Assembly: GCA_963575645.1 (NCBI GenBank)
Contig: OY754466.1
Coordinates: 7,852,001 to 7,916,000 of the forward strand
Length of the DNA stretch: 64,000 nucleotides
Reading direction: 5' to 3'
Origin: Xanthostigma xanthostigma
Taxonomy: Eukaryota > Arthropoda > Insecta > Raphidioptera > Raphidiidae
The notes beneath the pieces were generated by a model. The model saw only the letters and a program-made list of their open reading frames with translations. It made no database searches and was not told where the DNA came from. Of this stretch, positions 72 to 63,234 are shown in pieces; the stretch's first letter is position 1; every line of letters begins with the position of its first letter. A program made the translations under genes and the position numbers.

Positions 72-1951
72 AAAAATTACAGACTATATCCTCAGAATTG
101 GACGTTTCTCTGAGAACATTACGATTGCTAGAAACATTTTTGTAACCCAAAACAGAACCATCTGGGCCTAGAACTGCTTCGTTTTCTTCTAGCCTTTGAA
201 GTTCCATTACCTTAAAAAGAAATTTAACGATTACGTCAACTGTTCTAAAACACAATTACGTTAAAAAAAATCCAACTGAAAATATCTCAATATATTCAAC
301 TACCTCCGCTTGCATAAGGTCGGTGGACAAATTTTCAGCCTTCATGTTTTCATACATAGTTTGAAACATTCCGACATTCGAGTATTTGGCAGGCTGCAGA
401 TTTAAAACACGCGCGTCATCAAAAGATTCCGTATCACCATTCGACACGTCACCGTCGCCTTCTGCGTCTGACGAAACGGCAGATACGTCGGGAGACAGTT
501 CGCCTTTCTTATGTCGAACTAGACGGTCTATTATGGTCGCCAAATCTAAAGGTTTGTTAGGCTTGCCACGATTATCGACGCGCTTCTGATTTTCCTTCTC
601 TAATTGAACTATCATAAAGTTGTCATAATCCTGAAAACAAAAGAAAAAATAAACAAAATGTAAATTATTTGTATTTTTACTCATGACAGGTGTACTGTTT
701 TATCTTTTTTTCAAAGCCACATGCCATTGCCATAAAAATAATCTTAATATGTCCGACAGGTACTGACCTTGCTAAATCGATCTCCGGTATTTGAAATGCC
801 TTTGAGACCGCACAATTGAGTGCAATACTTCCGTTTATGCATAAAAAAATTAGCCATACTGCGAAACAATGATCGGCACGCTCGGCATTCGTAGATCAAA
901 TCGCATTCATATGTTAAAAAATCGCACATCTGGAAAACAAAAAAAATCATTATTTTATCATTTTACCGTATATGTTCCAACGAAAAGAAATTATATAACA
1001 AAAAGTAGGGCAATTATACACTTTCACGGTCACCTGGTTTTTTGGCTCTAGAAAATCGAAAAATAGATGGATTTCAAAGATCTCGGTCTCAAAAAGTTCC
1101 ATTTTACAGCGGATTTATGAAAAAAATTAGTTCACCCCGGAATTACAATTCGCATACCCGTTTATCGTTCACCCCGGAATTGTTTTTTCAAAAACTCCAC
1201 ATTTGCCCCTTCCCGTTTCACTGCGAGACAATTCGCATACCCCTTTATCGTTCACCCAGGAATTACAATTCGCATACCCCTTTATCGTTCACCCCGGAAT
1301 TACAATTCGCATACCCGTTTATCGTTCACCCCGGAATTGTTTTTTTAAAAACTCCACATTTGCCCCTTCCCGTTTCACTGCGAGACAATTCGCATACCCC
1401 TTTATCGTTCACTCCGGAATTACAATTCGCATACCCGTTTATCGTTCACCCCGAAGTTACAATTCGCATACCCGTTTATCGTTCACCCCGGAATTGACGT
1501 CAGAAACAGTTATAAAGAATTATATGTAGAAAGTCAATTTTTTTTTGCATTTAAAGTCATAAAACTGTGAGAAATATTGATTTTTTCAATTTTCGTATTT
1601 TTTTCCATAAATCCGCCATAAAAACGAAGATTTAAAAAAAAAATTCATCGAAATCGGATGATTTTTCGATTTTCTAGAGCCAAAAAACCAGGTGACCGTG
1701 AAAGTGTATAATTACCAAAAGTAGTATATAACGTCATGTTAGGCTGCTTTATTTACCTCTTTAGTTCCTGTTTCGAGAACCTTCGCAGCTTTCTTAAGTC
1801 CGGCTGTATTCGCTTGCATGGGTCGTTCAAGGTTTGCTTCGTCCATTTCACAGTTTTTTCCATCTTTATTATTCTCGTTGTTTCTTTGCTGCGATGAGTA
1901 CTTCGCTGAACCTTTCGCTTTTAACTTGGAGTTAGGCTTTGGACCAGGCAT
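72..1951 (-). CDS. ZNF800: ZNF800-like zinc-finger protein, 5' portion (four exons, runs off left edge)
   Basis: Coding exons on the minus strand are 1757-1951, 768-929, 304-630 and 72-210. All introns before the last one are phase 0; the donor at 66-71 leaves phase 1 and the next exon is outside the window. The start is ATG 1949-1951, giving MPGPKPNSKLKAKGS. Exon 2 encodes a zinc finger of the form YECRACRSLF followed by FFMHKRKYC, which closely resembles the first finger of vertebrate ZNF800 (FECKLCRSLF, then THKKFYC). Exon 3 is acidic and Ser/Asp rich with a conserved-looking DYDNFMIVQLEKENQKR stretch. Exon 4 ends in VCNF, apparently just inside a second finger. ZNF800 is a nuclear DNA-binding repressor in vertebrates; the same role here is inferred. 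Intron 1 (930-1756) is almost filled by a transposon. The family call is from memory of one finger plus layout, so another small zinc-finger family is possible. Confidence 0.72.
1009..1716 (+). mobile_element. Non-autonomous DNA transposon with 8-bp TSD and internal tandem repeats (copy 1)
   Basis: The terminal inverted repeats start GGCAATTATACAC on the left and GGTAATTATACAC on the right and run about 50 bp, through GGTCACCTGGTTTTTTGGC. The 8-bp target-site duplication AAAAGTAG is exact (1001-1008 and 1717-1724). Between the ends lie tandem repeats of a unit of about 37 bp containing ATTCGCATACCC and TTTATCGTTCACCCCGG. They are interrupted by a longer spacer containing TTTGCCCCTTCCCGTTTCAC. 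The repeats create open frames on this strand that read as simple peptide repeats and are not genes. An 8-bp TSD fits hAT- or Merlin-like transposition. A second, inverted copy is at 17674-18538. Confidence 0.9.
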
Positions 1952-15000: not shown

Positions 15001-18000
15001 CTAGCGTCATGTAAAATGTAATGTATTCATGGTTTAAATTTTTGTCACTAGATGTAATATCGTCTGTAAATATAACTTTAAATTTCGAGTTAGTTTCAAT
15101 TTTGTAGTGTGTAGTGCATAAGAAGTCACACTTCCGCCAAGTGTCGCGACATACACAATTCTTTTTTTTTAATTAATATAAACTTTTAAATTTTAATGTT
15201 TTCCTAAAAGCAAACGTTGCCCGATAAAAATTTACCCGTATTTTTGCTTAATTTCACAACGAATTATTAACCGAAAATTTAAAGAAAAACCACAGATGTC
15301 ACACCTTTCACACATCTAATACACTTAAATCACAGGCTTTGTAAATGTGTTAATTGCACAACAAAAAAAAATTGTTAAACAATAAAGCTTTTTTTTATTT
15401 TCGTACATATATATAATAATATTCACAATATATTCACGTCTGAATAATTAACAGCGTTTAATCGCTTTAGCTATTCAATTGTTGGAAACATATGAATGCC
15501 AAAAACAAATTTATTGTTGATGATCGTCACCTCATATCAATCATACCGTCATATTTTTATTATGTTTTTTTTTCAAACTTGATTTTTTAAATAAAATGAT
15601 CAACAGAATTAACAAAAATTTGATGTATAAAAAAAAATCACAGGTTAAATAAAGTTAAACAAATCTTAAAACGTGAATTTATTACGGTGTGTTTGTTGGT
15701 AAGTTTTTTTATTTTTTATTTACTACATGATAGTCCCTCTCTTATCTTATGCCAGTAGTCGAATGCAAAGTTCTAAAGCATTTGTTAAATAATTATTTCA
15801 GCTCGTCTTGTTCGAATTGTTCTAAAACTTTCCAACACACCTTGAGATGCGCTTTTGTTTGCCTGAACAAACAATCGCATGCGCAGCGGTAGGTACATGA
15901 TTTCGAATGTCATATTTATTCATCTTTAGCATGTTTATTTGCAATTAATGTTCGTCTTTTGTTAACATTTGATACACGAAAAAAAATTGAACTACTAGTA
16001 ATTATCTAAAGCGATTAACGATATTAACTACAAATAACGTATCGGCACAGTAATAGAAGGCACTAAATATTTGCGACGATAGAAAAAAATTTTGTCGACA
16101 TCGCATTTCGGTGCCTCTCGATAAGTTTTTTACATAATTTATACATTCCGTATTTTTTCAGTAAGTGAAAAAAAAACGGAATGCACCGAAATGTGTACAA
16201 ATAAATAAATAACAATACAGCAATCATTAAATTTCTAAAATGTCTAGTATTATACAATTTATAATACGATACAACTATTCAGCCCTTTTATGATTATCAA
16301 CTAAGATTTTTTTTTAAGAATTTCGAAATATGTACACTAATTGTAAACGATATTAATTTACTGAATCAAAGGTTTAATTATTTAAATTCCGTTTTTGATT
16401 ACAATACATTCATATAAGGGCTCGAACGATTAATTATAATAACTATTATTTTTTTATAAAATCTAATTTCGAATAATTATAGTTGTGTTTGGTATAATTC
16501 GTCAATGTACACTGGTTTACACTTTTAACACTAGAGTGTGTTTATTGGCAAGTTCTTGACTGTTAAAAGCGTATGTTGGCAATGCAGAGCTCTGCGAACA
16601 CAACTAAGTATACTGCGTCCACAAAAAGGCGTAGGGCACGATGACAGGTGAGCGCAAAGAGAGGGAGGTTCTGTTCCATGCTAAAATCTGTCTCACTCCA
16701 ACCGATGTAAATCATCATATTATGCGTTTCTCTCTGTCATGGCGGTTCACGTCTCTGCTAACATCGACATAGGCTTCCCCGGCCACCGTAAATATGTTAG
16801 GCAAATTCTCGGATTCTTCAAGCTATTTGAATTTGGTTCTATAGAACTTTCGGCTGCTTAGAATTGCTCAAACCAAGTTCGGACAGACCAACATACACGC
16901 AGCTGTATCCGAAGAGATCTGTATTGCCAACACACGCTTTAGCTGTTCAGAACCAGTTCACAACTTGCCAACTTATTTTTAAGTATAGAGACTCATTATT
17001 AAAGTACGGTTCGCTTAATGGAGCGGCAAAGCAATGAAACAGCGTAAAGCATACCCGGTCCTCGCATAAAAACTGCGTAGCTTATATTCTTGAAGTATAG
17101 TGTTAGCCACTACTGTACTACAGTTCTGTTTAGTGTATCGGCTCTTTACTACACTAACGAGTACTCAATAGTTTATAATAACTATTGTTTACGGCTTTCC
17201 TTTTCACTAAACTTCTTGATTGAAGACTTGCTACGAATTAAGTGAGAGCTTTTGTAAGTTACAAATTAAACATATTCTGGCACTAGCTCGCACTATTAGA
17301 TGTACACTAAAATATTCACTACTCATTTTTTTTTTAATCACTGGTTCCATAATGTATACTAAACACAACTTCTATGCATTATATAATAGTATTAATAAGG
17401 CACCTAAATGGGGTTATACAAATATTATTCAAGTATTTATAAACAAGTAAGAAACTATCTCTTGTTTTTCACTTCAGTTGTTTTGATGTTGTTATTTCAA
17501 GTATTTGTTTTAATGTAAAAATCTCATTTTTCTCATTATTAAAGATAATCCATTTTCTTAATAATAGTTCAGACAACTCAATATTTTTCAAATGCATTTT
17601 TTTTAGTACAGCTAATTTTTAATCTATTTTTCCAGCACAATATTATTATTTAATTATTATCGGTAATACTTTCGGTTATTATACACTTTCGCGGTCACCT
17701 GGTTTTTTGGCTCTAGAAAATCGAAAAATCATCCGATTTCGATGAATTTTTTTTTTAAATCTTCGTTTTTATGGCGGATTTATGGAAAAAAATACGAAAA
17801 TTGAAAAAATCAATATTTCTCACAGTTTCATGACTTTAAATGCAAAAAAAAATTGACTTTCTACATATAATTCTTTATAACTGTTTCTGACGTCAATTCC
17901 GGGGTGAACGATAAACGGGTATGCGAATTGTAATTTCGGGGTGAACGATAAACGGGTATGCGAATTGTAATTCCGGAGTGAACGATAAAGGGGTATGCGA

Positions 18001-21000
18001 ATTGTCTCGCAGTGAAACGGGAAGGGGCAAATGTGGAGTTTTTAAAAAAACAATTCCGGGGTGAACGATAAACGGGTATGCGAATTGTAATTCCGGGGTG
18101 AACGATAAAGGGGTATGCGAATTGTAATTCCGGGGTGAACGATAAAGGGGTATGCGAATTGTCTCGCAGTGAAACGGGAAGGGGCAAATGTGGAGTTTTT
18201 AAAAAAACAATTCCGGGGTGAACGATAAACGGGTATGCGAATTGTAATTCCGGGGTGAACGATAAAGGGGTATGCGAATTGTAATTCCGGGGTGAACGAT
18301 AAAGGGGTATGCGAATTGTCTCGCAGTGAAACGGGAAGGGGCAAATGTGGAGTTTTTAAAAAAACAATTCCGGGGTGAACGATAAACGGGTATGCGAATT
18401 GTAATTCCGGGGTGAACTAATTTTTTTCATAAATCCGCCGTAAAATGGAACTTTTTGAGACCGAGATCATTGAAATCCATCTATTTTTCGATTTTCTAGA
18501 GCCAAAAAACCAGGTGACCGTGAAAGTGTATAATTACCATACTTTCTTCAAAAATATTTTTTTTCTCATAAGCCAACAAAATGTTGATATTTTATGGAAG
18601 CCCAAAATACGGACATTACCTCTATTTTAAAATACAAATATGACAAAACCTGATTTAGTATAATTTTGTAGGATTACAATACAACAGTCTTCGTTAATAA
18701 TAGGTACATGATTAAAGTGTACTGCGCATCAATTAAAATTACACAAAATGGCAGACTTATAAACACGCGAATTAACCATTCAAAGTTAAAACCGTCAGTT
18801 TATCAACGCACTACCGTTTTCGTATTTTTCGATAAAATACGCAAAGGCATCCAAACACGTTTTAGTACACCTCTGGATAATTTTATAGAAAATTATGAGA
18901 GTGTAAAAATTGCAAAATAGCACTAAATTTACCTATCTGTCAGTTCGTGTAACAAAAAAGCATCCATATTTAAATTTAATATCCAATTTTTCAACAATCG
19001 GAGCAGCGGGCAAATCTAATCATAAATGGAAGCACTGTACAACAAATACGCGCTTAGTATACATTTTTGAACTGTAGGATTACATAACCTCAACGCATAC
19101 TTTCATGTGTCGTAGTGGTTATGTAACAGAGTCGTCTCACATTTTTTAATATACCAAGATTTATAGATACAGAAGTGACCTCGTTCCATTGGACAGCAGT
19201 GAGGGGATGACGTCATCCAGCAGACTGTCAATTGATATTGCGTGACTAACAAAAATATGAACATCTGCCAGTTGGCATCATTGGTGAACGAGATAACCTA
19301 TGTTCTTGTAATGACCTTGGAAATATACGTTACAAATAGAGTATAGACTATGAAATATTTTTTAAATTTTTCGCAAGCTTTTTCTATAATAAAAAAAGTA
19401 CTGAAAGCGTGTATTTGTCCACGGAATTATGCCGCTACCCAATTAAAGTAGATAATAATTTACTGTATCACATCGACCGATCTGTCAAATTGGATGCGAA
19501 CAACGAGGAAGGAATAATATGGCACTGTTCAACATTGCCATTTTTCGATATGTGTGACGACCCTATTCTATCGCTTATTAATGTATTACAACACTGTAAA
19601 AACGGATGACGAGGGATTTACAATAAACTGTAATTTGTGGTTATGTAAAAAAAATATTTGATATAGCGCTGTGTTTTGCACATTTGACACCGTCTGTTTC
19701 TAATTAAAAAGAATAGATTCAAATATTTGGAGTTTCTATTTTGTTGTATTACAAGTAACATTAATAAAATATAATTATTTATAATTACAATCTAAGAACT
19801 AACTGTTTACAGTTTACAGAAAAAATGCAAAACAAAAGAAAAACGAAAACAAAAATCATTCACTACCCGGTTAAAACATTTCACATACTTTATGCAAACA
19901 TTATAACATTGTCTTTAACAATTTAATGATAGCTTTGAATATTGGCAAGAAACCATATGTGAAATATTTTTTACACGTTTTCAAGAGCGGATTTTGCTCA
20001 AGTTGGCCCCCTAGGCCTCAGAACTAGTTTGATCCTTTATTTATAGGATCCAATATCACAGTTGTCAGTTACATATAAAAATATGTATATTATCTCAAGT
20101 AATATTTATTTTTCTTCTAAATATACCTTCAAAGTCGCCCCTTAAAATCAGCCGCTATTAGTCTGGGCCTCGCAAGCCTTAACTTAAATCCGCTCCTGCA
20201 TTTTTTATATAAAACACACTTAAAAAAAACGCAAGCACAAACGTTCTATTTGATTGCTCTGTACAAAACGAAACTTTTCTGAACTTTTCTGCAATTTCTA
20301 CAGAAACCTGTACAAAAGAAACATTTTTTTTTCAAATTAAAAAAAAAAAACAAATATCGACTTTGTTTAGGCTTCATTTTTTTTATTGTCTTGGGCTGGC
20401 CTATCTTTGGCCAATAGCTGACAACTCCATCTTAATTCTCAAAAATTTGTTTAACTAATAAAGCATGTAGGTAATATTACATACGATATCGGTAATCCAA
20501 ACTATATTTTGTTATGAAAGGTCCAGTTCAAAGACAAAAAAAAATGTTCGGAAAAGCTAGTGTAACCTATTTATTTTTATTATTCCATAATATTTTTCAT
20601 ATGTAAAATCTAATCTAATCCTTAAATTAAAAAAGTGGCTCTAATATTTTAAACGAAATTTTAGAGATGAGTTTTTTTAACAATAAAAATTAAAATAATG
20701 TTATTTGCATTTGTTTTAATATTCAACTGTTTACGCCGAAGCTGTAATTTATGAAACCGTTTTCTTCTGTCATTTTTTTATTTCAATCACTTCAGACTCA
20801 AAAAATTTTAGTGGATGATCTAAAATCTAAATGTACTAGCGGCCCGTCCCGGTTTCACCCGGGTGCAAAACTGTAAGATTTATACATAGTCTCTCTCTCT
20901 CTCCCCTCTCTTTCTCTGGAAATATTATATTGACCTTCCCATCTACGCAACCATTCACACCCACCCACGTAACAACTCACACCCACAGTATATGTGATGG

Positions 21001-46998: not shown

Positions 46999-47001
46999 TA
47001 A

Positions 47002-47548
47002 CGGTCCGCCAGCTGAAATTATTCATTTGACCTTGCTTACCATCATATATTTAAATTTTTATTATAAAAACGGACATGAAATTATGTAATATTGTTACAT
47101 TTATATAACCACAAAAACAGAAGATAATACTAAAAATCTTAGTAATAATGTGATAAAGACACACATTGGCAGTATAATTCTATTTTTATACTAATTAATT
47201 TAATGCAGGAAGTGAGAGAGGTAAAGCGGTATGGGTAAACCCAGATTCCGAGAACAATTAAATTTTTTATAAACAAAGGAACGTATATACGAGTTCCGTT
47301 TCTTAGAATGAGATAGCTATATAAACACTTGTGATAAGGTAATGCAAACTAAAAACAGAGATACTAAAAACAAGTTGTTCTACTGTTCAGAGGCCAATGA
47401 GAAACAGTCGTTCAGAGACATTCAGTTGTTTGCCACGAAAGTTTATATTTTGTTTTGACTTACTTTAAAGTGTGATTTAAGTTAGGTTATATTTATAAGA
47501 AAAAGTATATACAATTTGATATCAATTTTTGATTAACTTGAATTTATC
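47002..47548 (+). promoter_or_regulatory. Upstream region of the first MSD gene
   Basis: Nothing coding. An arthropod-type initiator TTCAGT occurs at 47421-47426, with no TATA box upstream. If used, it gives a 5' leader of about 125 bases without an intron. Confidence 0.35.
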
Positions 47549-47974
47549 ATGTCGGATGGGGGCTGTGATAGTGGGGGCGGCGGTGGAGATTGCGGTGGAG
47601 GCGGTGATACCGGAGGCGGCGGTGATTCCGGTGGAGGTTGCCATTCTAGCGGAGCCGATCATTCCAGCGGAGGCAATCATTCCAGCGGAGCCGATCATTC
47701 CAGCGGAGGCTGCCATTCCGGTGGAGGCGGTCATTCCAGTGGGGGCGGCCACCATTCGGGTGGAGATTACCATTCCAGTGGAGATTTCCATTCCAGCGGA
47801 GGCAATCATTCCGCTGGAGGAAACGATTATAACGGAGGAACATCAGCTTTTGGAAATTATACAAGTGATTCGAGCGGTTTCGGTGATAGCGATGGATATT
47901 CCAGAAGAAAACGGAAACCCAAAAACGCGCCATACAACGGGCAAGCCGATTGCTGCTGCTGCGTGATTATTTAA
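47549..47974 (+). CDS. MSD-family Gly/His/Ser-rich protein with C-terminal Cys cluster and CaaX-type end
   Basis: 141 residues, single exon. It begins MSDGGCDSGGGGGDCGGGGD, followed by about ten six-residue repeats of the form (G)G-x-H-S-S-G rich in His with a few Cys (residues about 28-92), a GNYTSDSSGFGDSDG stretch, a basic patch RRKRKPK and the end QADCCCCVII. The last four residues (CVII) fit a CaaX prenylation box and the three preceding cysteines could be palmitoylated, so a membrane-tethered protein is predicted. Nothing in the sequence tells its role; His/Cys richness could bind metal. It is the first of three same-strand genes starting MSD. Candidate AATAAA at 48223-48228. I do not recognise the family. 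Confidence 0.75.
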   Translation: MSDGGCDSGGGGGDCGGGGDTGGGGDSGGGCHSSGADHSSGGNHSSGADHSSGGCHSGGGGHSSGGGHHSGGDYHSSGDFHSSGGNHSAGGNDYNGGTSAFGNYTSDSSGFGDSDGYSRRKRKPKNAPYNGQADCCCCVII

Positions 47975-48999
47975 AGTCGAAATTCAAACGAAACGCAGTG
48001 CCAACATTTGACTAGAAATTATTTTTCTTTAATTATTTGAACGGAACATTTAATTATTTTGATTTTGTTTACATCGTTGATCTAATTGTTATATTCAATG
48101 TTAAAAATTTGATGAACATATTCTGTTATATGTATTGTATCTTGTTTCTACAAAAAAGAATTAGATAGATTTTCTAAATTGTTTAAAAGTTACAGCAGTC
48201 ATTTTAAACAAAATAACACGTAAATAAATGAAGGTAAAAGTTTTAGCTAACTTTTGCAGCAAGGGGCATACCTTTGTCTACAATTGTTTAATAAAGGCTT
48301 TAAATACCTATATTAATAGAAAAAATGTTAAGTGAAAAGAATTTAGAGTATGCGATTATGACTGAAATGACGGTCACAGAGGTTAATGAATTCCCTGCAG
48401 ACAATAATAAGTTGATTGGAAATTATTGTGACGCATGACGTGTTTACTGTTGATACGAATTATTGTAAAATAAGTGTTGTATATGTATAAGTACTTATAA
48501 TAAACATAATGTAGGCTATAATTTTATGTTTTTAAAAGAAATAAATATCTGTTACAAAAAAAGCGTTTTAAACTGATTAAATATCTGCCATTCATTTACA
48601 GTACGTATCAAACACAGGAAAAAATTATCAAATTTTGAAACCATAGGTGAACTGTACTAGTACTACAACAACAAAATTAAAGTAACGTCTAACCTTGGCG
48701 GGTAGATATTTTTACTTCAAACTTTGGCAACACTGCGCGACAATAAGGAGTCGCATATTCCATGTCCATATCGCATATACTTACACAAAATGCACTGAAA
48801 AAACATATATCGATTGTAATGTGTGTCTGTTTACTGACTTCAGTACAGCGGGCCGTCTTTTTGTCTTCTAAAAGCGTTGAAATAAAAAAAAAGAAACCTT
48901 GACCACATTTATAACCACAAAACAACGTACAAATTTTGTACTGATCAAAGTATACGCTTATTGAAAAGCAAAAGGTGCGTATTTTTGAAATAATCGATA
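47975..48999. other. Spacer between MSD genes 1 and 2
   Basis: Contains the 3' end of gene 1 and the unmarked promoter of gene 2. No other gene and no recognisable transposon. Confidence 0.5.
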
Positions 49000-49749
49000 A
49001 TGTCAGACGATTGTGGCGGTGGCGATAGTGGTGGCGGAGGGTGTGATAGTGGAGGAGGAGGGTGTGATAGTGGAGGAGGAGGAAGTGATACATGTGGAAC
49101 TACCGACTCCGGCGGAGGAAGCATTGCTTGCGAAACTACTGACACCGGTGGAGGAACCGCTTTTTGCGGAACAGCAGATAGCGGAGGTAATAGCGACAAT
49201 AACCATCATGGTGGTGGTAATGACACTGCAACCGTTTGTTATGATACAGGAGGTAATAATGACAATAGCAAGGATGTAAACCACGGATCCTATTTTGGCG
49301 GGAAAGACGAAAACGGGGCACATTTTAACAAAATAAATTGTAAAGGGGAAAACAATGGCAGCAACAATGAAAATGAAATTCGAAGTTTTAATGAAGAAAA
49401 TCGCGGTGGTTTACTCAACAATGATAGTGATATAGGAGTAATCAGTGAAATTGCCAAGAATTTTGATGGTGGCGTTGCAAGAAATCTTAGTCAAATAAGT
49501 GATCACGAAAGCATTTTCGATACTGGTTTAACTGGAACCAATAGTTATAATACTTATTATTATGACAATATTTATGATGATACTAACGACTATGCCACTG
49601 ATTCTCCGAAATGCTGGAAATCTTGTAAAAGGGGAGTAAGACGAATGTTTTACAGATTTTGTAAATGCGGTTGTTGCGAAGAAAACGGAGAGGAAATCGA
49701 ATTGGAAACGGAGAGAAAACAGTGGGAACGATTTCCGCAAAAATCATAA
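49000..49749 (+). CDS. MSD-family Gly/Cys/Asn-rich protein
   Basis: 249 residues, single exon. It begins MSDDCGGGDSGGGGCDSGGG and continues with (D/T)(S/T)GGG units containing spaced cysteines up to about residue 85. An Asn/Glu-rich middle follows (residues about 86-160), then a more ordered part with GVISEIAKNFDGG, a Tyr/Asp-rich stretch (YNTYYYDNIYDDTNDY) and a basic Cys motif, PKCWKSCKRGVRRMFYRFCK, ending in CGCC. The tail is acidic then charged, ending FPQKS, so unlike gene 1 there is no CaaX box. The basic/aromatic Cys stretch could sit on a membrane with palmitoylated cysteines. Shared start, composition and position indicate common descent with the neighbours. Function unknown. Confidence 0.75.
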   Translation: MSDDCGGGDSGGGGCDSGGGGCDSGGGGSDTCGTTDSGGGSIACETTDTGGGTAFCGTADSGGNSDNNHHGGGNDTATVCYDTGGNNDNSKDVNHGSYFGGKDENGAHFNKINCKGENNGSNNENEIRSFNEENRGGLLNNDSDIGVISEIAKNFDGGVARNLSQISDHESIFDTGLTGTNSYNTYYYDNIYDDTNDYATDSPKCWKSCKRGVRRMFYRFCKCGCCEENGEEIELETERKQWERFPQKS

Positions 49750-51565
49750 ACACGAATTCTATTTCACGTATTTATTGGCTTTTTTTATGTGCCTTATCGT
49801 TGTTTCGAATTAAATTCGAATTGTGTTTACAAAAAAGCTAAGCTTGTTTTCTGTGTGAATTTTTCGCTTGATAATACTTTGTGTTTGTATACAATATATT
49901 TTTTGCACGATCATTATAAAATAACTGCTTCTCATGTCTGTATAGCGGTAGTAAAATGACCCATTTCGCGCTAGTGCGCAAAGTAAAATAAAAGAAATGC
50001 TATTTTACCAATCCAGTGGTAAATGAGCAACAGAGACAGTAAATTAGGTGTTGTCTTCGTAAACAATTAAAATAGATTTCAATATGGCCGGAACAATCTC
50101 AGTTATTTAGTTATAATTTACATTGATAATCTCATTGAAAAATTGGATTTTAATTACATTGTTGATGAGTTTGTTTTAAAAAATTCCCAGCGTCGAACGT
50201 TTGCACTCAGTAAACATAATATATCCAATAAAAATTTAAAACTATAATTACAATATAATTATCGAATGTTTTTCTATAATTAGTTTTAAAATTTATACCG
50301 CTCACCAGGTCACAATGTATCTACATTTTAATGTGAAAGAATTGTTTCAATAAACAAAAAAAAATAGTTCATATTTCTTATCTATAAACTTGAAAAAAAA
50401 ATAAAATACTTCACTTTTGAGGTAATATTTCCGGGAATATTGTTTGATATTGGCTTGGCTGTTTAAAAATAATTACTTATTTTATTTGGAAAGATCTTGG
50501 CGTCATCGTTGTTCGTCGAAAACAGTAAAATACCGTGAAAGAGAACTAATTTTATTAGACTGAGAGAGAAAAAACGATAAAAAAACTATTTAAACACTGT
50601 GGCGTACCACCTGTGATTTCGACACTATAATACTATTAAATAAGAAATCAAACACCTCATCTTTTCTTAAGTCCATGTATTTTTATATTACACAGGTAAT
50701 ATAGTAATGTAACACGTTAGTAACAAGCAATAAGCTTGAGAATATTCTATCAAATTACTTAGTACGTCTTATAAGTAAAATAATATTCAATAAGGTTGCG
50801 CCATTGGTACAGTAGCCACTAGCTTTTGTTTACGAAATCAACCGATTTATTGAGTCGTGAAACTCCGTCATATTTGTGGGTTTGACTGTGGAAGCGACTG
50901 CTGTCTACTCTATTCTATTCAGTATTCAGTGCATAGAAATTAGGAAATATTCATTGCTATCAACTTTTCGGTGTTTACCGAACAAGTTTTTGTGTTATTT
51001 TGTTTCAAAAACTACGCTTCCACATTATATAACTTTTGTTTTGTTATAAGTTCACAAAAAATATATTGTAAAATTTGTTATAAAATTTGAAGTGTTTTAA
51101 AAGTGCTACCGAATTTATTTAAATTCTGCTTTGTTAATTGCTATCAAATTTGATTATCTCAAAATTAACCACAAACATTTTTATGTTACTTATAATTTTT
51201 TATTTCCACATGGTTATAATTTAAAAATGTGTATACAATAATATTGGATTCAATTGTAGATTATAGACGCTCGAAAACTCAACATTTTTAATTTATATTC
51301 AAGCATTTCGTATTGTCACTTGCAGTCTAACTTAATTTAATGTTTTGTGACTTAAACATTTTTTTAATTAGTAGTTATACTAATATTATTATTAATATGT
51401 GCCTATAAAAATATTAAATAATATATTCCATAGCTTTGTGTGCCTTTTAAGAATTTAATATCGATATCTGATACCGCGATACCTACTTAAGATACCATAA
51501 AATTTAAATATACGCTTCGAATAAATTATTTGTAATACCTATTGATAACTGTATACGTTTACACG
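49750..51565. other. Spacer between MSD genes 2 and 3
   Basis: AT-rich, no gene seen. Initiator-like TATTCAGTATTCAGTGC lies near 50918-50935, far from the gene 3 start; if used, a long leader or an intron would be needed. Confidence 0.4.
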
Positions 51566-51892
51566 ATGTCCGATTGTGGAGATTGCGGTGGAGATTGCGG
51601 TGATTGTGGTGATTGTGGAGATTGCGGTGATTGTGGTGATTGCGGTGATTGCGGAGGAGACTGTTCAAACTGTTGCTGCAATAGTTGCGATGGTTGCTGT
51701 GGGAATGGAGATTGTGGAGGCTGGATTTGGTATTGGCTATGCTGCGAATGGATAGATTGTTGTATAGATTGCACTTTATGCTGTTGCGCTTCAACACCCG
51801 GACCTCCGCCTCCGACGCAATTACCGGCACAACAGAAAAAGAATGAAGAAATCGAACCGGAAGAAGAGCCCATCACGACTCAGCCGAGATAG
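51566..51892 (+). CDS. MSD-family Asp-Cys-Gly repeat protein
   Basis: 108 residues, single exon. MSDCGDCGGDCGDCGDCG continues as about nine DCG triplets to residue 34, followed by NCCCNSCDGCC, an aromatic stretch GGWIWYWLCCEW, then IDCCIDCTLCCC. The end is Pro-rich and then acidic (PGPPPPTQLPAQQKK, EEIEPEEEP). About 30% of the first 75 residues are Cys. The Trp/Cys block is hydrophobic enough to be a palmitoylated membrane anchor. The pattern recalls, without homology, the Cys-Gly-Pro repeat sperm proteins of Drosophila; metal binding or disulphide crosslinking are alternatives. The ATG at 51566 is chosen because it gives the MSD start shared with the two upstream genes. AATAAA at 51988-51993. 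Confidence 0.75.
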   Translation: MSDCGDCGGDCGDCGDCGDCGDCGDCGDCGGDCSNCCCNSCDGCCGNGDCGGWIWYWLCCEWIDCCIDCTLCCCASTPGPPPPTQLPAQQKKNEEIEPEEEPITTQPR

Positions 51893-52111
51893 TACAATGA
51901 ATCGGATTAACAATCTGATCGGGAGTTAATTATATTTTTCTTAAAATCGATTTTTTTTATTAATTTAAGACCATAATTGTTGAACAAAATAAAAATTTAG
52001 TTGGTACTTCTACCAACTGTCAGATTAAGAGCTGGAAACTAAAAGTTTTTAATAGCTGATTCTCTCGTTTAATTACAAACTGGTTTGATTTTTCGTATGA
52101 AACATTTTAAC

Positions 52112-52639
52112 TAGTGATGTGCCGGATCGTTAAAAATGTATATCCGCGGATACGGATCTGAATACGGATATTTGGTTTCAAGATCCGCGGATACAGATAC
52201 GGATCTTAACTTTCTTAAAGTACGCGGCGGAAAATATTGCACATCGAACTTTGGAAAGAGACTATCTGTTATGGGAAAAAATTATTGAACTCTTTAAGAG
52301 TTAACTCTCATAACAAATTGTCTCTTTCCAAAGATCGATGTGATATATCTCATTATAAAGATAGTTTTTTAGTACCTTTGAGTTATGTACTATTGGTATG
52401 GTACTCACTACGATAAATGTTTGCAATATAAAGGTGCCAAATGCGATTTTAAAAAATAAAAAATAATCTGAATGGAATTTAACAGTTATTCATTATTACC
52501 TAATCACCTATATATACCTATAAAATTTCATCTATGAATTGAAAATTAATAAGGTAAAAGATCCGCCAAAAACTAACGGATACGGATACGGATCTTTCTT
52601 CTCCCTCGGATACGAATACAGATATCCGGCACACCACTA
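52112..52639. mobile_element. hAT MITE with TAGTGATGTGCCGGA ends
   Basis: Inverted ends TAGTGATGTGCCGGA and its near inverse, exact 8-bp TSD ATTTTAAC (52104-52111 and 52640-52647). Subterminal parts are built of GCGGATACGGAT-type short repeats on both sides. No gene inside. Confidence 0.9.
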
Positions 52640-52652
52640 ATTTTAACACATT

Positions 52653-52731
52653 AAGGCCTAGTTTATATGAGAGGCGTTCAACGCGCGTTGGGCCAACGCG
52701 CGTTGAACGCTCTTCATGTGTGCTAGGCCTA
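52653..52731. repeat. 79-bp hairpin mini-element
   Basis: Core palindrome 52674-52710: GCGTTCAACGCGCGTTGG, one base, then its exact inverse. The outer arms are TAGGCCTAG-like with mismatches. The whole element is a single foldback. Confidence 0.85.
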
Positions 52732-52739
52732 AAACTGAT

Positions 52740-54540
52740 ATGAGGATCAGACCAAGTTGCAAATTATGACCATAAATTTAATATTTTTCATATTTATTTC
52801 AAAGAACAAATAAGTAGTAACATGGCAAGAATAAAAATGTGGTGTTGAGTTATATTCCATTTAAATGAAATTAAAATATACGTCTTTTTATCAATATATT
52901 GAGAAATTTAACTAACACGATGTCTTCTGTTATACGCTCAAAACACGGAGATGAGTGATTAAGTTTTGTAATGACAAAAAATAGTTTGTTTTTTTTCTGT
53001 CAAATGAATATCTTTAATTTTGCTCAAAAGTATTTTATATTGCATGAAACATTATTTTTCATCTGATTTTATACATATAAAATTATTGTATTTTTGATAA
53101 CGGACATAAAATAATTGAAAAGTATCTTGAATATTATCTTAAATTTGTTTCATTGTGTCTCAAATATATATTATGTATTCTATTTTATATCATGTACTTA
53201 TTTTGTATACTTTTTATATTATATTGTATAATACTTATATTAAAATATAAATTTATCTTCCATTTTAACATTAAAAACCTGCTTTCAAATTATTAACAAT
53301 TGCCAGTTGCAAAATTGCAATTTATGAACTACTTCCTTACGAATCCTAACACATCCCTCTTCTGTCAGTAATAACCCAAACCTTTATTATGTTATCATAC
53401 ATACTTTAAGCATGACGAAAACTTTTAACGGCTCCAAATGATTGTATAACTATTCAGAATTGCCACCTCTTATTTGTTTTAACATTTTTTTCATATCGAA
53501 TCCATCAATCATCACAGACCTTGTCCAATCATAGACGGGTAGACATGAGGCTTGACTATTATTAACAATTTTAATTTTGACTACTTATTATATACCACAG
53601 AATCCCGTCATAAAACAGTTTGGTCCTAATATGATTTTCCTTTTTTAACCGACTTAAAAAAGGGGGGGTTCTCTATTCGATTGTATTTTTTTTTTGTCTG
53701 TCCGCCGATATCTTCACCGGCTATGAACCGATTTCAACGATTCTTCTTTTTACAAACAGCACTCCAGTATATTGGGTGGCCTACCATAAAGGTATTAAAA
53801 GCGCAAAACTAACAAAGATTCTACTATTGCTAACGTGCTTTTCTGGGCATCAACAATTATTTTTTTAAGTAAAACTTCTGGCACGGTCGGGTTAAATCGA
53901 TTCATGAGATTGAGAGTGTAACGAAACGTTGCAGCACAAATGCACGTATACTACAAAAAACAACCGGACAAGATTGTGCTATAGTGGCTGCCTTGTAACC
54001 TAAAGATCGTAGATTCGATCCCGACGGCTTTTTTTTTGTTTTTAACAATTATACCAGGTTTACTTTTGCAGTATGTAGTCTAAAATACACAGTCTTATTT
54101 GCAGTAGGTACTACATTTGAAAATTTTTACTTAAAATGTGTTTTTTTTATCGGCAGTTTGATTTTATTCGTGAAAGCTTTTTTGTTGTAAAAAGTCGTTG
54201 ATTGTAAATTTCAACGGTTTCAATCTACAATTATTTGAATAAACAATTATTGTTATTGGTAGGTGCTGCCACAGGCGGTTGATTTGAAAACTATAATTTA
54301 AATGTCCACTAATGATCTCTTGTGATGTACATTGCACAGATAATATTGCTTAATTTGAAGTATGTAGTTGCCGCTTTCACTTAATCATTTTTATTTTTAA
54401 TATTTTATACCAATGAGATCCCTTTATAAATAAGCGAATTCAATAATTTCATAAAAACAAAAACATTCGTTGTCAATTTTTTGCAACAATTTCCACAAGA
54501 AATTTCAAACTAAAACGCAATTTTTAAGCACTCTACAGCG
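52740..54540. other. AT-rich spacer with SINE-like pieces
   Basis: At 53645 a segment begins TTTAACCGACTTAAAAAAGG and continues with CCGGCTATGAACCGATTTCA, a common interspersed-repeat motif. A tRNA-like stretch at 53978-54028 (GTGGCTGCCTTGTAACC, then B-box-like GTAGATTCGATCCC) follows. No gene seen. Confidence 0.5.
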
Positions 54541-62381: not shown

Positions 62382-63234
62382 TGTTATTCGCAATAGCCGA
62401 AATCGGCCACTGCCCGAAATTTTTGCCCACAACGCGTTGCGGGTAAGGAAATATACTCACAAAGCGTTTTCTGTTAGTTTTTGCGGGGCATGGGTAAAAT
62501 TAAACGCCCACAACGCGTTGTGGGTAAATGATCGTACCCACTACACGAATTAAGAGTTTTTGAAGCGTCGCATCGGTTTGTGGGCATTCCAATCTACCCA
62601 CGTCGCGTTGTGGGCGTCTCTTCTTACACACGATGCGTTGAACCTGCTATGGTTTCCTCGGGATCAAAACAAGGATTTCTTCACTGCCAGTGTTTTAAAG
62701 CATGCGGAACAAAGGCATGTTCTTGTGTCAGGAAAAATGTTAAGTGCTACTCAAAATGTCACAAAAGCAATCCGTGCAAGAATAAGTAGAGCGTAGAAGA
62801 AAAACTGTTGTGAATTTTTTAATACATACTTTCATATTTAAAAAATAAACTCAGTGTTTATTAGGTATTTAGATGTTTTTTGGAGTTAAAATTTTATTTT
62901 TATTATAATATATGATATTAATGGTAGGTAATAGGTATTATTAAAAGCTATTAGAAAAATTGTTATTATTATTATTAAAACACATCGTGTGTAAAGAGAC
63001 GCACACAACGCGACGTGGGTAGATTGGAATGCCCACAAACCGATGCGACGCTTCAAAAACTTTTAATTCGTGTAGTGGGTACGAGCATTTACCCACAACG
63101 CGTTGTGAGTGTTTACTTTTACCCATGCCCCGCAAAAAATAACAGAAAACGCTTTGTGAGTATATTTCCTTACCCGCAACGCGTTGTGGGCAAAAATTTC
63201 GGGCAGTGGTCGATTTCGGCTATTGCGAATAACA
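62382..63234 (+). mobile_element. Ginger-like DNA transposon remnant with long inverted repeats
   Basis: Inverted arms of about 260 bp begin TGTTATTCGCAATAGCC, flanked by the 4-bp TSD TATA (62378-62381 and 63235-63238). The arms contain many CCCACAACGCGTTGTGGG-type palindromes. The interior holds only the end of a protein with a Cys-rich motif. TGT...ACA ends and a 4-bp TSD fit Ginger-type elements. Confidence 0.75.
62634..62789 (+). pseudogene. Cys-rich C-terminal domain fragment of a transposon integrase-like protein
   Basis: Reads CQCFKACGTKACSC, then KCYSKCHKSNPCKNK and a stop. The pattern C-x-C-x3-C-x4-C-x-C-x6-C-x3-CH-x4-C is the motif I know from C-termini of Ginger-like integrases and of the domesticated protein KRBA2. 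The catalytic part is absent. Confidence 0.65.

Follow-up and report, generated by a model that had tools for sequence, protein, structure and literature searches.

Several described systems bear a likeness to the proteins considered here. K-Ras4B and H-Ras are directed to the plasma membrane by a polybasic region or a palmitoylated cysteine beside the CaaX box (PMC7255682), the cytosolic protein CSP/DNAJC5 is anchored through many palmitoylated cysteines (PMC4447612), and CYSTM proteins are tail-anchored (PMC10217909). Modulation of PIEZO channels requires palmitoylated cysteines of the MDFIC helix (PMC12626003), and Mst84D/87F form a male-specific cluster with a Cys-Gly-Pro motif (PMC10645079). 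In this study, we analysed three neighbouring open reading frames (ORFs), g1, g2 and g3, in a 64 kb stretch of DNA (hereafter the window; contig coordinates 7852001-7916000) of a genome of 623 Mb in 28 contigs, which may form a small, fast-changing gene family. It was hypothesised, with rather less than even confidence, that they are a locus-specific tandem family of three coding genes whose products would combine cytosolic, disordered heads with three different membrane anchors.

Directly visible in the window were three + strand ORFs with an MSD start (MSDG in g1, MSDD in g2 and MSDC in g3) and Cys/Gly/Asp repeats, and both the coordinates and the starts given in an earlier note on this DNA were confirmed. 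The note had also assigned to each gene a repeat of its own, but the separation is not complete: the first 30 residues of g1 contain DSGGG and DCGGG-type units like those of the g2 array. When both strands of the window were scanned, three ORFs of at least 20 amino acids (aa) began with M-S-D, namely g1, g2 and g3. Four 10 kb flanks (40 kb) held two more MSD ORFs (33 and 73 aa), neither of them a Cys/Gly repeat. A DNA start pattern fitting g1-g3 had 25 matches in the genome versus 27 for a reversed-pattern control. This pattern takes TCN serine codons only and was written post hoc to fit the three genes, so the number of matches proves nothing by itself, and its weight lies in the adjacency of its repeat-type openings genome-wide: 3 of the 25 matches opened Cys/Gly-repeat ORFs, and these were exactly the neighbours g1, g2 and g3.

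The three ends are different. The C-terminus of g1 reads SRRKRKPKNAPYNGQAD-CCC-CVII, in which C138 is fourth from the C-terminus and is followed by V-I-I-stop, in agreement with the sequence rule of the CaaX box (a cysteine, two aliphatic residues and a last residue of any kind). Pattern TGYTGYTGYTGYNTNATHNTNTRR (CCCC-hydrophobic-I-hydrophobic-stop or TGG) had a single match in the genome, the g1 end, and its reversed form had 0. With this CVII end and with the two features that assist it in Ras proteins, the polybasic stretch and the neighbouring cysteines, the g1 tail appears to be of the Ras type. An isoleucine in the last place of a CaaX box favours geranylgeranylation. The earlier note had described cysteine-dense segments that look fit for lipid attachment in all three proteins; the g1 tail proved more specific than the note had it. 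While g1 resembles the hypervariable regions of H-Ras and K-Ras4B in its polybasic stretch, cysteine cluster and C-V-I-I end, it differs from Ras GTPases in that no GTPase domain was found among Pfam matches and the head is a Gly/Ser/His repeat. It contains 8 cysteines in 141 residues and 11 histidines, most of which lie in the regular array. A genome search with the whole of g1 returned itself and two weak low-complexity matches (E 0.26 and 0.33), both in a frame on contig C4. That frame (G000:C4:6387094-6387621; L005/L006) is an open low-complexity frame of 1385 residues which weakly resembles the g1 array.

In g2, the stretch PKCWKSCKRGVRRMFYRF had the highest hydrophobic moment of any 18-aa segment (0.65) and directly precedes CKCGCC; the moment of a 22-aa segment chosen by eye was matched by 53 of 2000 shuffles. 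The net charge is +6 at residues 201-220, and the protein has 14 cysteines in 249 residues. The highest 19-aa Kyte-Doolittle hydropathy among the three proteins (1.34) was found at residues 58-76 of g3, and a Pro/acidic tail of 33 residues comes after its WIWYWLCCEWIDCCIDCTLCCCA segment. g3 is like CYSTM proteins in being small, with a Cys-rich hydrophobic segment behind a low-complexity head, and differs from them in that the segment is not C-terminal. With E values up to 10 allowed, Pfam gave no CYSTM match to g3; HMMER filters may drop such Cys-rich matches, and we take it that the library includes the CYSTM model. CSP/DNAJC5 would be alike in being a lipid-anchored cytosolic protein, which g1-g3 are only presumed to be, and it differs in that no DnaJ Pfam match was found here and that the longest cysteine run is 4 in g1 or 3 in g3, as compared to 11-15.

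Genome searches with whole g2, with its last 66 aa alone and with whole g3 gave self matches only; such whole-protein searches score the best candidates only, and diverged low-complexity relatives may escape them. Searches of Pfam (E up to 10 for g3), NCBIfam and PDB sequences yielded nothing of weight for g1-g3, HMMER filters being able to discard biased Cys-rich matches. A Pfam match of g2 to DUF832 (E 0.16, below the cut-off of that family) and three PDB sequence matches of g3 (E 0.08 to 1) were taken as chance. Scans of viral contigs revealed no relatives, and no description of such proteins was found in the open-access papers searched. Relatives may already carry database names such as uncharacterised or 'keratin-associated-like'. 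Single-sequence AlphaFold models of g2 and g3 had a mean predicted local distance difference test (pLDDT) score of 34.8 and 45.8, respectively, too poor for a structure search; these low values would fit disorder, but an alignment without relatives would give rise to them as well.

As for the kinship of the three genes, an alignment of their first 40 aa matched GGCDSGGGGGDCGGGG-DTGGGGDSGGG of g1 with GGCDSGGGGCDSGGGGSDTCGTTDSGGG of g2 at a score that was reached in 7 of 1000 shuffles, while the g1-g3 score was reached in 31 of 1000; the shuffled nulls do not preserve repeat periodicity. At the 22 identical residues of the g1/g2 alignment, the codon is identical in 8 cases and synonymous in 14, a pattern which may reflect either an ancient duplication in which the protein sequence was preserved or convergence towards a common composition. 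The exact sequence GG-C-D-S(AGY)-GGG occurred three times in the genome, always within g1 and g2. These results give moderate support to the view that g1 and g2 may be diverged duplicates. A shared tandem origin of g3 is likely at best; its kinship rests on its place and its MSD start, its alignment scores being weak. The tandem duplication with repeat turnover suggested in the earlier note is moderately supported for g1/g2, and genome-wide rarity together with adjacency lends it some support for all three. The EEIE tails common to g2 and g3 (repeat D19) were rejected as a sign of kinship, as they did not rise above shuffles (466/1000).

If transcribed and translated, g1-g3 would have cytosolic, intrinsically disordered heads made of mostly acidic Gly/Asp/Ser/Cys repeats and tethered at the cytoplasmic face of a membrane. 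The g1 anchor would be a prenylated CaaX cysteine (CVII), aided by three S-acylatable cysteines and the polybasic patch as in Ras-type tails, that of g2 a basic amphipathic stretch with the palmitoylatable CKCGCC cluster, and that of g3 a Cys/aromatic segment carrying several S-acyl groups. The heads may form a flexible membrane coat whose regularly placed thiols, together with the histidines in g1, would bind metal ions or partner proteins. Membrane binding, as proposed in the earlier note, is supported at the level of motifs for g1 (CaaX box, polybasic stretch and extra cysteines) and appears plausible for g2 (amphipathic stretch and CKCGCC) and for g3 (Cys/aromatic segment).

A number of results weigh against this hypothesis. 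The patterns for the starts, for GGCDSGGG and for the g1 tail were all composed after seeing the genes, and GGCDSGGG at up to one mismatch gave 6 matches versus 10 for the reversed control. The similarity of g2 and g3 in their first 40 aa was no better than that of shuffles (807/1000), and none of the three pairs scored above shuffles in the last 60 aa (146 to 466/1000). Full-length pair scores were rarely equalled by shuffles (0, 0 and 27 of 1000), yet the null is too lenient here since the composition of the repeats is dispersed by shuffling; BLASTP with composition adjustment gave an E value of 6.1 for g1-g2 and no match for g2-g3. Acidic residues lie inside the g3 segment and make it a poor classical transmembrane helix, for which reason multiple S-acylation would suit it better. 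Nor do the repeats speak clearly for translation. That all 38 of 38 differences among nine D-C-G units of g3 fell at third positions is true by construction and was given no weight. When units were chosen from the DNA only and each variable column was counted once by codon position, g3 had 2 of 2 at third positions with one mismatch allowed (P 0.083), which is only suggestive, and, when the settings were relaxed, 2 of 5 (P 0.60) and 2 of 6 (P 0.77). In the same test, third positions were favoured in g2 in five of five settings (P 0.025 to 0.095; 3 or 4 units), again only suggestively, and g1 showed no third-position lean in three settings (P 0.44 to 0.57). In favour of translation, when g3 was compared with itself at a shift of 9 nucleotides (nt), with units not picked by amino acid, third positions held 12 of the 16 mismatches (P 0.0008), counts that are not independent owing to 27-nt duplications, and a 27-nt shift placed 2 of 2 there (P 0.11). 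The repeat-based evidence for translation of the three frames is only suggestive. Such codon-position results, flat in g1 and at best suggestive in g2 and g3, would also fit a non-genic locus, that is, low-complexity satellite-like DNA open by chance. In the g1 array other frames are open as well, over 136 aa in the +2 frame and over 95 aa on the antisense strand, because of which ORF length alone is weak evidence at g1. Of 500 random sequences built on a first-order model of window positions 47000-52800, 19 had a longest ATG ORF on one strand of at least 108 aa, the length of g3, but none reached 141 aa (g1) or 249 aa (g2). Since the repeat evidence is weak, the case for translated frames rests on length, on the shared start and on the ordered tails; the common MSD start, the adjacency and the ordered motifs in the non-repeat tails make a chance origin quite unlikely in our judgement.

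Other explanations grant that the frames are coding and give them another role. One is that g1-g3 serve a structural purpose in male germ cells like Drosophila Mst(3)CGP, being produced by spermatids for packing or crosslinking within the sperm tail. In both cases small genes are clustered and hold a triplet repeat with Cys-Gly, which is CGP in Drosophila and DCG at the present locus; however, CGP is absent from g1-g3, which have DCG, DSGGG and HSSG repeats and lipid-type tails, and a CaaX tail would be unfit for a packed sperm-tail protein. The translational control element (TCE; ACATCNAAATTT, PMC3439415) was not found in exact form within 700 bp upstream of g1, g2 or g3. With two mismatches allowed, it occurred 2, 3 and 0 times upstream of g1, g2 and g3, respectively, versus a window-based expectation of 0.67 per 700 bp, so that g1 and g2 may yet possess a TCE; a germ-line role as a whole seems unlikely. 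Metallothionein-like buffering, in which the CxxCxxC array of g3 and the Cys/His arrays of g1 and g2 would bind Zn, Cu or Cd, could draw on the 25 cysteines among the 108 residues of g3, mostly at two-residue spacing N-terminally, and on the 11 histidines of g1. Metallothioneins are typically Cys-dense and free of aromatic residues. g3, by contrast, has Trp and Tyr, the cysteines of g1 and g2 are too few to resemble them, and no metallothionein or other family match was found in Pfam; this role is accordingly judged quite unlikely. It is also conceivable that a palmitoylated cysteine helix enables g3, if not the whole trio, to modulate a membrane protein, as MDFI/MDFIC do on PIEZO channels. 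The g3 segment is Cys- and acid-rich and possibly palmitoylated, in which we take it to be similar to the hydrophobic segment of these I-mfa domain proteins. The I-mfa profile PF15316 had 0 matches in the genome at E up to 10, a search whose power is unproven as 14 control genomes were silent too, and g3 had no Pfam match at the same limit; this analogy is given a low probability. Cuticle proteins are often Gly-rich, a feature that would be shared if g1-g3 were secreted or cuticular crosslinked Gly/Cys proteins. However, none of them has a hydrophobic N-terminus (hydropathy over residues 1-25 averages -0.50 to -0.64), so an extracellular crosslinked role is disfavoured, and the CaaX tail is a cytosolic signal; we consider this the faintest of the possibilities.

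The features of the three genes are collected in Table 1. ORFs around them had family matches to Angiomotin_C, ubiquinol-cytochrome c chaperone, CCDC174, C2H2 zinc fingers and synaptobrevin, and the source was read as an animal because of these matches; it is presumably an insect. The + strand ORFs g1-g3 sit between a CCDC174 exon (41.6 kb) and a synaptobrevin-like exon (58.2 kb), and an ORF reaching 44740 and having no family match is taken to be the end of the CCDC174 gene. The gap between g1 and g2 is 1025 bases and that between g2 and g3 1816 bases. A single-exon structure is plausible for each gene since every ORF runs from an ATG of its own to a stop codon and no clear splice acceptor was seen by eye near the ATGs. 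TCAGT initiator-like words occur upstream of all three; a five-base word is expected often, and nothing was drawn from them.

Table 1 Features of g1, g2 and g3 (window positions). TRF, Tandem Repeats Finder.
Gene	Feature	Position	Strand	Description or basis
g1	ORF	47549..47974	+	141 aa, MSDGGCDSGGG..., G/H/S-rich repeat, end CCCCVII
g1	18/36-nt tandem array encoding H-S-S-G-G-x units	47625..47820	+	TRF
g1	Polybasic stretch RRKRKPK, upstream of CaaX box	47903..47923	+	Translation; net charge +3, residues 121-140
g1	C-terminal CCC-CVII-stop, CaaX box after three cysteines	47951..47974	+	Pattern TGYTGYTGYTGYNTNATHNTNTRR
g2	ORF	49000..49749	+	249 aa; DSGGG/Cys array, long N/D/S-rich middle, basic-Cys end
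g2	Tandem arrays, 21-nt and 36-nt units, encoding GGCDSGG-like and D(S/T)GGG	49024..49172	+	TRF
g2	Basic amphipathic stretch PKCWKSCKRGVRRMFYRF then CKCGCC, candidate S-acylated membrane anchor	49606..49677	+	Hydrophobic moment
g3	ORF	51566..51892	+	108 aa, 25 Cys
g3	DCG array, 9/27-nt units, Cys mostly at every third residue	51572..51656	+	TRF; Cys positions
g3	Hydrophobic Cys/aromatic segment WIWYWLCCEWIDCCIDCTLCCCA, candidate S-acylated membrane segment	51722..51790	+	Hydropathy

Other repetitive and mobile sequences were observed in the course of the analysis. A pattern for the start MSDCG gave 28 genome matches versus 70 for the reversed control, comprising 11 copies of one ORF, g3 itself and 16 others that opened 6-71 aa without Cys/Gly repeats. 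The 11 copies are ORFs of 246 aa starting MSDCGSIDTPIECKL (L007, L008, L010, L012, L015, L018, L019, L029, L030, L031 and L032, each at 1501); they are nearly identical across the 120 residues compared and probably represent a recently active transposon, presumably copia-like. A 315-aa ORF starting MSDVCGQCNIKITATRQLPKVNCSDCLKSYHGKCV was present in three copies (L048, L055 and L056, at 1501) that are alike over the 130 residues compared, and we take it to be PHD-finger-like and possibly ORF1 of a long interspersed nuclear element (LINE). A tandem repeat that reads FTPELQFAYPFIVHPGI / RDNSHTPLSFTPELQ as long open frames was located at window positions 1009-1529 (+) and 17861-18416 (-) and at L036 9325-9988 (+), and is thus satellite-like yet open in three places within about 75 kb. 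A Cys-rich stretch, SGSKQGFLHCQCFKACGTKACSCVRKNVKCYSKCHKSNPC, at window position 62658 (+) is presumably the zinc-binding end of a transposon.

Returning to the hypothesis of a tandem family of membrane-anchored repeat proteins, a bolder version of it, which we regard as rather doubtful, is that the family is young and that its related disordered Cys/Gly heads are set on prenyl plus acyl, basic amphipathic plus acyl, and poly-acyl aromatic anchors. Anchor swapping would then diversify the repeat proteins, each of which would carry its brush for metals or partners to a membrane of its own. If g1-g3 are related, one disordered repeat head would be found on three membrane anchors, compactly at one locus. 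Were this true, the roles of head and anchor could be separated, and the speed at which repeats and lipid tails turn over would become visible. Short repetitive proteins tend to be masked in standard searches, and such families may therefore be under-reported.

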